Of a stretch of 64,000 bases of DNA, positions 32,462 through 35,329 are shown piece after piece. Position 1 is the stretch's first letter. Each line of letters begins with the position of its first letter. The DNA lies in assembly GCF_001618685.1 (NCBI RefSeq), contig NZ_CP014342.1, positions 1,860,001 to 1,924,000 of the forward strand, read 5' to 3'. Source of the DNA: Geobacillus subterraneus (GTDB taxonomy: Bacteria > Bacillota > Bacilli > Bacillales > Anoxybacillaceae). Made by a program: the position numbers and the translations under genes. Under the pieces are notes generated by a model. The model saw nothing but the letters and a program-made list of their open reading frames with translations, was not told the origin of the DNA and did not search any database.

Positions 32462-32522
32462 GTGTTCCTTTGCTTCTCCTCTCTATTCATCTATCGATCA
32501 TTCAACCGCCCGCTCAGGCAAG

Positions 32523-32690
32523 CTAGCCAAAAAAGCGCTCGCCACATCGTTGCAGAGAAGCGATCGTATCGTGAAGCGGCGGGAGCGCTGTGCTGCTGAT
32601 GAGCTGCGCCTCGATCGCATACGCGCGCCGCTGCAGGCGCAGCACCATAGCGGCCGTTTTCTCATCTGCGATCTGAAGTTCCGCAATCAT
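32523..32690 (-). pseudogene. GNAT acetyltransferase, truncated N-terminal remnant
   Basis: ATG 32690 behind GGGAGAGG opens a 55-codon frame, IAELQIADEKTAAMVLRLQRRAYAIEAQLI then ALPPLHDTIASLQRCGERFFG, stopping at TAG. This matches the first two helices and first strand of GNAT N-acetyltransferases (the QRRAY-EA-LI-PPL-T-L-ER-FYG pattern). The acetyl-CoA-binding half is missing and is not found downstream before phoE. It is either a truncated pseudogene or a very short expressed fragment. Confidence 0.6.
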
Positions 32691-32712
32691 GTTCCTCTCC
32701 CTTTCGATGGCG

Positions 32713-32737
32713 AAAAAGCGGCCGAGCCCGGCCGCTT
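32713..32737 (-). terminator. Hairpin terminator behind the TnpB chimera
   Basis: AAGCGGCC (32716-32723) pairs with GGCCGCTT (32730-32737), and on the minus strand the run of T from 32717 to 32713 follows. It lies just past the transposon right end and before the GNAT remnant. Confidence 0.75.
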
Positions 32738-32741
32738 GTCG

Positions 32742-32876
32742 TTAGTCAACTACCCCCACTTCGCTAACACTTGAAGTGGGGGCTTGCAACTCCCCAGAAG
32801 TACGAGCGGACTTCGTCCTCCTTCCTTGACTTGGGGTTGCATCAGGGGCAGGTTGACAGCTGCCCAACGACGCAGG
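32742..32876 (-). ncRNA. IS200/IS605 right end with probable omega (reRNA) scaffold
   Basis: Directly behind the TnpB stop the minus strand carries stacked hairpins: GGGCAG/CTGCCC (32846-32851 with 32860-32865), long-range TGCAAC-rich pairings, and a final perfect 10-bp stem CCCCCACTTC/GAAGTGGGGG (32753-32762 with 32773-32782). This is the layout of the right end of IS605-type elements, where the guide RNA of TnpB is made. The element boundary is probably near TAGTTGAC (~32744-32751); bases beyond it would be the guide. RNA production is inference. Confidence 0.55.
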
Positions 32877-33272
32877 TCATGCCTGTGTCGTTCCTTCAAC
32901 GATGTACTCTATTCCTTTTCGTTGAAGGTTCATAGCACCAATGCGGTCATCGTTTGAGGTATATCCGCATGTTCGACAACAAAAGGTGTGTGTACGTTTC
33001 TTTCGATTGGCTTTTTCCGTATGACCACACTTTGGACATGTCAAAGAGGTGTAATGCGGAGCAACCACCATCACTTTTGACCCATGCAAACGTGCCGGCA
33101 TGTGAATGGTGATCATCTCGTCGTCTTTGTTGATCGTATAACCGATATAATAGCGATTGCCTTCACCATGCTCTTCAAAAATGCCGACTTGGTCGAGGCC
33201 ATACGCTTCCATCATCGGCTCAAGCGTGTCGATAAACTCGTCGATCACGACGCTTCTTGGCACAAATTCCAT
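32877..33272 (-). CDS. Chimeric protein: DUF5634-like N-terminus fused to a TnpB zinc-ribbon C-terminus
   Basis: Residues 1-59 ([20 protein letters not shown] and on to [10 protein letters not shown]) look like the start of a small Bacillaceae DUF5634-type protein of unknown function. From residue ~60 the frame continues without break into the C-terminus of an IS605 Tnp[21 protein letters not shown], a Cys79-Cys82/Cys99-Cys102 zinc ribbon, and [10 protein letters not shown] with the third RuvC Asp. RuvC I and II, the bridge helix and the N-terminal domain are absent, so no nuclease activity is expected. ATG 33272 has AGAGGAGG upstream. Confidence 0.75.
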
Positions 33273-33349
33273 CTTCTTTTCCTCCTCTTTGCCCATGCTC
33301 AATGTTAGTGTGCGGCAAAACGAGGAAAAGAATGAACGGAAATGATCGG

Positions 33350-35329
33350 CTACGCCGGCGGTTCGCCGCAAGCGTTGCGGTTGTGTTCTTCTAGCCATTG
33401 TTGCAGCTTTTCCGCTTCAAGCGAACGGCTGAAATAAAATCCTTGCGCGTAGTCGCAATCCATTTGCGACAGAAGCGCCACTTGCGACTCCGTCTCGACT
33501 CCCTCCGCCAACACTTCAATATCCAAACTTTTGGCTAAATGAATGATCGTATCGACAATCGTCGCATCTTTCGAATTTTCCGCAATGCCTTGAATAAAAC
33601 TGCGATCAATTTTCAACAGCGACACCGGCAAATTGCGGATATACGCGAGCGAAGAGAAACCGGTGCCAAAGTCATCGATCGCCGCCTGTACACCAAGTCG
33701 CTGCAGTTCGGTTAAAATGTGTCTTCCTGTCTCAATGTTTTCCATCAGCCCGCTTTCTGTCACTTCTAAAATGAGCCGATCAGGCGCTAGCCCCGTCTCG
33801 CGCAAAATGCGCTTCACATGCTCGACAAGTTCGGGGCGGTTGAGCAAAAACGGCGATAAATTGACCGCTAACTTCAGTCCGGGAAATTTTCTTTCCCATT
33901 CTTTCACTTGGCGGCACGCCCGTTCCAACACCCATAGCGTAATTTCAAAAATAAAGCCGCTCTCTTCAGCCAGCGGGATGAAATCAAGCGGCGGAATGTC
34001 GCCAAGCGCCGGGTGGCGCCAGCGCAACAGCGCCTCAACGCCCATTGCCCGGCCTTTGGCAAGCCTCACTTTCGGCTGATAGCATAAATAAAACTGCCCG
34101 CGCATAATAGCAAACGGCAAATCTTGCTCAATCACCGCATGCCGATGTTCCGTCGGCCGATAAAAGGCATAGCCGTTCCGTCCCCGCTCCTTCACCTCAT
34201 ACAGCGCCTGATCGGCGTATTTCATCACTTGCTCGATCCGGTCGCTGTCTTTCGTGAAAAAAGCGATGCCGATCGATAAGGTCGATTGGATGAGCTGTTT
34301 GTCGTAATAAAACGGCTCATGAAACGAGCTGACAAGCCGCTCGGCCAAGGCGGTCATCTCCGTTTTCGTGATGTTTGGCAACAAGAGAACAAACTCATCG
34401 CCGCCGACGCGCGCGAAAAAATCACCATGACGCAGCGCCTGCCTAACGCGTTTCACCGCCTCGCGCAAAAAATAATCGCCGGCTTGATGAGAAAAATGGT
34501 CATTGATCCATTTAAATTTGTCAAAATCTAAATAGCATAGGGCAAACGGCGTACCGCTCGCGATCAACTCATCGATATGCCGCTCGAAATAGCTGCGGTT
34601 GGCGATGCCGGTGAGTGAGTCAAAGTAGGCAAGCTGACGCAGCTTTTCCTCATACTGCTTCCGCTCGCTAATATTTTTTACCGTGACAATGACGCAGTCA
34701 AGCACGCCTGCTTCATCGACGATCGCTTTTCCTTGCGCCTCCATCCAAACCCATTCGCCATGCCCGTCTCGCTTGCGGAACTCTGCCGTTTGCGCCTCGT
34801 ATGTATCATACAGCTCATCCAGTTTTTGGGTTACGACCGGCACGTCATCGGGGTGGACAAACGCCAACACCTCATCGTATGAGACCGGAGGGCGCTTGTT
34901 TGTTTTTCGCTTCCATGACGGCGGGATATACGATAATTCCCGATGGCGGGAAAAAATCAAGACATAGTCGCTCGAATGTTCGACGATCAGCTGCAGGCGC
35001 CGCTCCGCTTCGGCAAGCCGCGCTTGCAACCCATCCACTGAGGCTTGGCGGCGCAGAACGCATAGCATGGCCGCCGGTTGGCTGCGCTCGTCGATGATTG
35101 GCGACATGACGGCGACAAAAGCGCCGCCGGGCAATTCAACCTGAAAAGCGACCTTCTGTTCTTTCATCCGCTCGGCCAACGCTCGTCCCTCAGCGGCGAG
35201 CGCCTTTTTCTCGTCCCGGCTCAGGGCCAGACGGCCAAAGGCTGGATTTTGATAAATGATGACGCCTTGCCAATTCAAGATAACGACTGCTTCTGTGAAG
35301 TGATGGAAAAAGGCCGTATACTTGTCCAT
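33350..35329 (-). CDS. PAS-GGDEF-EAL cyclic-di-GMP protein
   Basis: This 659-residue cytoplasmic signalling protein has an N-terminal PAS-like region (about 5-90), a coiled linker, a second PAS/PAC with a PP-W-D-E-HPDD pattern (~105-230), a GGDEF domain with intact [15 protein letters not shown] (~310), and an EAL domain with [23 protein letters not shown] and [16 protein letters not shown]. Both synthase and phosphodiesterase motifs look complete. No membrane segment is seen. It probably tunes c-di-GMP in response to a signal sensed by PAS. It stands alone between the TnpB chimera and the siderophore locus. Confidence 0.92.

Follow-up and report, generated by a model that had tools for sequence, protein, structure and literature searches.

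A DUF5634-TnpB chimera in Geobacillus subterraneus, very probably a recent relic of a transposon insertion followed by one deletion

A reading frame on the minus strand of the window (the whole stretch of 64,000 nucleotides of Geobacillus subterraneus DNA that was analysed) passes without interruption from the first part of a DUF5634 gene into the last part of a tnpB gene, and is followed by the complete structured right end of the transposon. We consider the locus to be, very probably, a recent transposon relic that arose by an insertion and then one deletion: a single deletion suffices for the arrangement, and in relatives the gene and the element are found intact, together with the TTCAT insertion motif. 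The genome that carries the chimera is a single contig of 3.47 Mb with 32 matches to the TNB domain.

Composition of the chimeric frame

The chimeric frame (32877..33272, minus strand) encodes 131 amino acids followed by a stop. It opens with ATGGAATTTGTG, located 3' of the ribosome-binding-like sequence AGAGGAGGAAAAG, and with this open frame, start codon and upstream sequence a chimeric protein could be made. Two domain matches, both exceeding the Pfam cut-offs, divide it: residues 3-60 correspond to PF18681 DUF5634 (profile 1-58 of 98, E 4.1e-17) and residues 60-116 to PF07282 TNB (profile 12-60 of 60, E 1.2e-14). The protein is thus composed of residues 1-59 of the 99 of DUF5634 and of the final 72 of the 372 residues of TnpB. 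On the DNA, profile match and alignment assign 33096..33272 (minus strand) to the first 59 codons of a gene that has 99 codons in G. thermocatenulatus, and 32877..33095 (minus strand) to the final 72 codons of tnpB and its stop. All four cysteines of the Cys4 ribbon are present (aa 79, 82, 99 and 102), and the last RuvC Asp is placed at aa 109 by offset mapping. The preliminary description had announced an in-frame fusion of a DUF5634-like N-terminus to the last ~70 residues of a TnpB, up to its natural stop, and both points are confirmed.

The host half is far from a complete DUF5634 protein: compared to PF18681 proteins it has the first 58 of 98 profile positions, the C-terminal 40 residues being replaced, and of the 45 columns that are invariant in an alignment of 11 sequences, 17 fall in the part removed. 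No paper was found under the name DUF5634 in the open-licence literature. The gene seems dispensable in the genus, since that of genome G010 (C13 near 32463, L025) is broken by a 17-bp deletion and genome G006 gives no match.

Parent element, insertion site and joint

The transposon part is a 351-bp remnant (32745..33095, minus strand) which, by alignment to copies, covers about positions 1051-1402 of a tnpB-only element of 1402 bp. It is 96-99% identical to copies in G. zalihae, G. thermocatenulatus, A. voinovskiensis and its own genome, and its 72 C-terminal TnpB residues recur, identical or nearly identical, in 13 other rows, which represent 12 distinct places. These 351 bp make up the likeness of the locus to the tnpB-only IS200/IS605-type elements of Geobacillus and Anoxybacillus (about 1.4 kb, TTCAT), a family which we take to be IS1341-like; compared to the full elements, the relic lacks the left end, the target motif and 300 of the 372 TnpB codons. 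Two full-length copies were measured, of 1360 and 1402 bp. The longer one (L048) encodes a TnpB of 372 amino acids preceded by 150 bp and followed by 136 bp, stop codon included, so that tnpA has no room in the element. Where the preliminary description speaks of IS605 elements, the correction applies that the full-length element consists of tnpB only.

In the relic genome one stop-free 372-aa TnpB frame of the same family remains, at 1122207; its element retains positions 117-1402, without the left end, and has a right end 95% similar to that of the relic. One other TnpB type accounts for 22 TNB matches of the genome, all scoring nearly alike, and 16 of these have frames of 420 aa. The Y1 transposase (PF01797) was not found in it. 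Over the genus, a Y1 match is absent from 3 of 14 genomes, and exactly one in-frame TGA occurs in 11 of the 41 Y1 transposase matches listed.

Short elements with a left and a right end but no tnpB, which we take to be PATE-like, are present in the same genomes. Their right end is 92-95% identical to that of the relic in six copies of the relic genome (L129-L134, at 36169, 3416834, 3453702, 2196783, 1125476 and 1102944 of G000), whose interiors are conserved and unlike tnpB; the three that were compared with Rfam gave no match. These short elements have retained their left end and differ in the interior, whereas the relic locus has no left end and does not belong with them. Among the copies of the TnpB group, shortened frames (<300 aa) are found at 12 of 85 distinct places, relic included, with 3 more clipped by the locus edge; this share is not a census, because the loci were fetched by likeness to the relic piece. 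One G. zalihae locus (L053, 2857-3228) holds another 5'-truncated copy, with 454 bp kept, in which an in-frame upstream ATG opens a frame of 124 aa with a short unrelated N-terminus. Two copies of another TnpB type (L003 and L004) are both shortened and start near RYRKTNNIKKLEF, with different residues upstream.

The insertion site can be read from intact relatives. The right end of the element finishes at 32745 (..GTAGTTGAC), adjoining host sequence, which resumes at 32744 with TAACGACAAGCGGCCGGG. In the closest intact allele, that of G. thermocatenulatus (L056), ATGCCG is followed by 120 bp finishing GTGATTCAT and next by TAACGACAAGCGGCCGGG: the intact order is ATGCCG-120 bp-GATTCAT followed by TAACGACAAGCGG, that of the relic genome ATGCCG, element and TAACGACAAGCGG. 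In the intact host site TTCAT thus stands directly 5' of the point where the relic right end now joins the host, which places the insertion between the last sense codon of DUF5634 and its stop. Of the 11 aligned tnpB-bearing copies (two of which share a flank), 8 have TTCAT immediately in front of the left end, and the 3 others have lost this end or carry it in altered form. The motif stands at the same place in 7 of the 8 short two-ended copies inspected. At the relic locus there is neither left end nor TTCAT motif.

The deletion joint lies at 33095..33096 (minus strand), as placed by alignment to the intact gene and to the element, in agreement with the junction near 33095 of the preliminary description. 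Host letters end at ATGCCG and element letters start with GCACGTTTG, with a 1-bp overlap, one G being assignable to either side. Gone at this joint are 120 bp of host DNA (vs G. thermocatenulatus) and ~1.05 kb of the element (vs L048, 1402 bp). The same picture is given by a 901-bp query over the locus: in relatives its flanks (1-305 and 657 on) stand about 120-180 bp apart, and its middle (305-656) matches TnpB elements at other places.

From these intact relatives we propose the following history. An IS200/IS605-type element with tnpB only, about 1.36-1.40 kb long, would have inserted immediately 3' of TTCAT, which forms the final five coding bases of DUF5634 ahead of its stop. One illegitimate deletion with 1-bp overlap would then have brought DUF5634 codon 59 next to tnpB codon 301, taking away the last 40 DUF5634 codons, TTCAT, the left end and the first 300 tnpB codons (~80% of tnpB); for a random joint, the frame would be retained by a one-in-three chance. 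What stands at the locus is a DUF5634 gene that breaks off and continues as a TnpB zinc-ribbon tail, then the right end in full and a host hairpin as is found after DUF5634 in relatives.

A variant of this history, nested within the relic reading and not exclusive of it, attributes the loss to abortive repair: TnpB would cut the empty site after excision, repair would copy the element from the right end only, and the ends would then be joined, yielding a right end, a partial tnpB and a resected left flank. The retained piece is indeed anchored at the right end, the 120 bp of host DNA are missing on the left side alone, and another G. zalihae copy retains positions 948-1402. We nevertheless regard this origin as unlikely: a plain deletion yields the identical product, losses occur on either side among the copies listed (G002 keeps 1-385 and G005 two inner pieces), broken copies among these are too few to show a bias towards keeping the right end over the left, and the Y1 transposase is not detected in the present genome.

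The preliminary description had named a junction unique to one strain, with no transcript, as a refutation. As to uniqueness, the joint is seen in the relic genome only, and neither in the 13 other genus genomes nor in the 80 loci kept from a wider scan. In the genus (one genome per species), a 221-bp query over the joint found no second carrier: in 12 of the 13 genomes the match covers the DUF5634 side and stops at the joint, and G006 shows no match to either side. With the 901-bp query, no joint-crossing alignment was present among the matches listed for 61 genomes (own apart; 33 match somewhere). A contig collection of 84,980 species, from which the relic genome or very near ones may be absent, gave no fusion-like locus among 80 kept of 315 related loci: matches stop at residue 59 or start between residues 39 and 65. 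Those starting at 39-54 extend slightly into the DUF5634 half and are probably TnpB letters aligned by chance, since most sit in frames of at least 300 aa and the shorter ones read as TnpB. Narrow searches of the open-licence literature brought no paper on such host-transposon chimeras to our notice.

A joint seen in one genome only could also come from an assembly that brought two places together. This we hold to be the least likely of all readings: the genome is a single contig, the right-hand boundary is the exact element end at a valid target site, and the only other long own-genome copy among the matches listed differs from the relic at 14 alignment columns. The next best match in this genome, 96% over 353 bp, is too distant to be the source.

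Downstream of the locus, and outside the fusion, a neighbouring gene that is presumably GNAT-like is cut to 55 aa (32523..32690, minus strand) by a separate 403-bp deletion vs G. thermocatenulatus (L056). Over the 12 genus loci compared at this scar, G002 alone aligns straight through; G007 and G012 miss a different stretch and G011 does not align straight through.

The structured right end and the guide position

The right end (32745..32892, minus strand) is omega-RNA-like, with five hairpin helices and a GTCAAC/GTTGAC pseudoknot. It folds at -65.2 kcal/mol, whereas shuffles average -49.6 kcal/mol (z -3.4) and only 1 in 200 does as well. Over 19 right ends, 97.7% of the cells of a 45-pair structure including the pseudoknot are paired, a figure that is favoured because the structure was drawn from the relic copy, which forms 45 of 45 pairs by construction. 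Two-sided changes are found at 13 of the 45 pairs, against a shuffle mean of 2.0 (none of 500 as high) and 1-2 in slid versions of the structure. This covariation is mostly located in three of the five helices. The pseudoknot helix never varies and is therefore neither supported nor contradicted, and 13 of 18 sequences do not form the innermost pair of the final hairpin. At the relic locus no known RNA family scored above its curated threshold (two weak matches, E 0.16 and 0.36), nor did any at four loci with full or short elements. The intact right end of the preliminary description is confirmed: it is complete to 32745, and its fold and its covariation beat those of shuffled sequences.

The host sequence that follows in the would-be guide position (32725..32744, minus strand; TAACGACAAGCGGCCGGGCT), beginning TAACGACAAGCGGCC..., has the very letters that adjoin TTCAT in the intact site of G. 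thermocatenulatus. It runs into a host hairpin (32716..32737, minus strand), AAGCGGCCG GGCT CGGCCGCTT then TTT, which is terminator-like by eye. The 65-nt stretch with this hairpin is hardly more stable than expected by chance, 24 of 200 shuffles folding as well, and a consensus scan does not list it as a terminator. We read it, with this reserve, as what may be the old DUF5634 terminator, because relatives have a like hairpin after the stop codon.

Since the scaffold is intact and one intact same-family TnpB remains in the genome, use of the RNA in trans is conceivable. Transcripts of the broken gene would carry the scaffold with the host guide TAACGACAAGCGGCCGG, and the remaining TnpB would load this RNA; we give this a very low probability. 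A slightly lower probability goes to a further proposal, that the enzyme would then cut intact alleles arriving from relatives and so lock the loss in, the relic allele being immune because TTCAT is lost. Besides the complete scaffold, the intact 372-aa TnpB frame at 1122207 with its 95% similar right end speaks for such a guide, and so does the distribution of the exact motif-plus-guide site TTCATTAACGACAAG, which does not occur in the relic genome and has a single occurrence in G001 and another in G013, each in the intact allele. TnpB of other IS200/IS605 elements is described as cutting the empty site (PMC8612924; PMC11870625). Against it, from its 8th base on the guide sits within the 9-bp arm of the GC-rich host hairpin, no sigma-70-like promoter was found in 32480-33700 (1.2 expected by chance), and 11 of the 13 other genus genomes are without the exact site, leaving it in 2 of 14 overall. 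Most likely, this right end is an RNA scaffold left behind by the element.

Age and fate of the chimera

The relic piece is separated by 4 differences from its nearest copy (L049, G. zalihae). A comparison with 13 rows from 12 distinct places (L047 and L173 being the same one, and L051 and L052 having a flank in common) leaves 1 private substitution in 351 bp; it lies at 32769, in the last hairpin's loop, and the coding part has 0. With a single private substitution over this length the fusion event, as dated from the sequence, is recent and without measurable selection. The lack of decay cannot tell a neutral from a selected locus, because recency alone accounts for it.

What the TnpB tail could still do was judged from ISDra2 TnpB, by placing query 175-362 on chain 186-373 of 8bf8 with a gapless offset assumed. 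On this mapping the first retained TnpB residue is ~312 in ISDra2 numbering and Asp109 of the chimera corresponds to D361. The catalytic residues of ISDra2 TnpB are named as D191, E278 and D361 (PMC10097598); by the same offset D191 and E278 are lost, and of the three acidic residues of an active nuclease D361 alone is kept. The Cys4 ribbon and final RuvC Asp reported at first are thus both present, with the refinement that the piece holds one of three catalytic RuvC residues. The WED and RuvC domains of ISDra2 TnpB are reported to bind the RNA scaffold, and the contact residues taken from that source all precede 312 (PMC10097598). On this mapping an RNA-binding or decoy role of the chimera is unlikely, as these contacts lie in the lost part.

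Relic or early domestication were the two outcomes envisaged in the preliminary description. The first is favoured by the intact gene, the intact element and TTCAT in relatives; the second is not upheld. It would have the DUF5634-zinc-ribbon protein bind omega-RNA or DNA and dampen TnpB, and the open in-frame ORF with its four ribbon cysteines agrees with it. We think it only slightly more credible than an assembly error: the joint is seen in a single genome with no other carrier, the DUF5634 half is without 40 of its 99 residues, the omega-RNA contact surfaces named for ISDra2 TnpB are all gone, and there are no private coding substitutions.

The locus resembles TldRs in combining TnpB-derived coding sequence and incomplete nuclease residues with a neighbouring guide-RNA-like scaffold. 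TldRs are near full-length, keep the RNA-binding domains and are conserved in place across genomes, whereas the relic is a 72-residue tail in one genome, with 300 of the 372 codons missing and 0 of the 13 other genus genomes sharing it. TldRs are described as TnpB-derived RNA-guided transcription factors (PMC13418256). Judging from the parts that are missing, the chimeric protein most likely does nothing specific, and would be misfolded or degraded.

The locus offers a clean case in which one deletion at an IS insertion has fused host and transposon in frame, and in which the insertion site, the target motif and the ends of the deletion can all be read to the base. If the guide in trans, improbable as we hold it, were true, it would mean that the right end of a dead element can still guard its locus by means of a TnpB from elsewhere.
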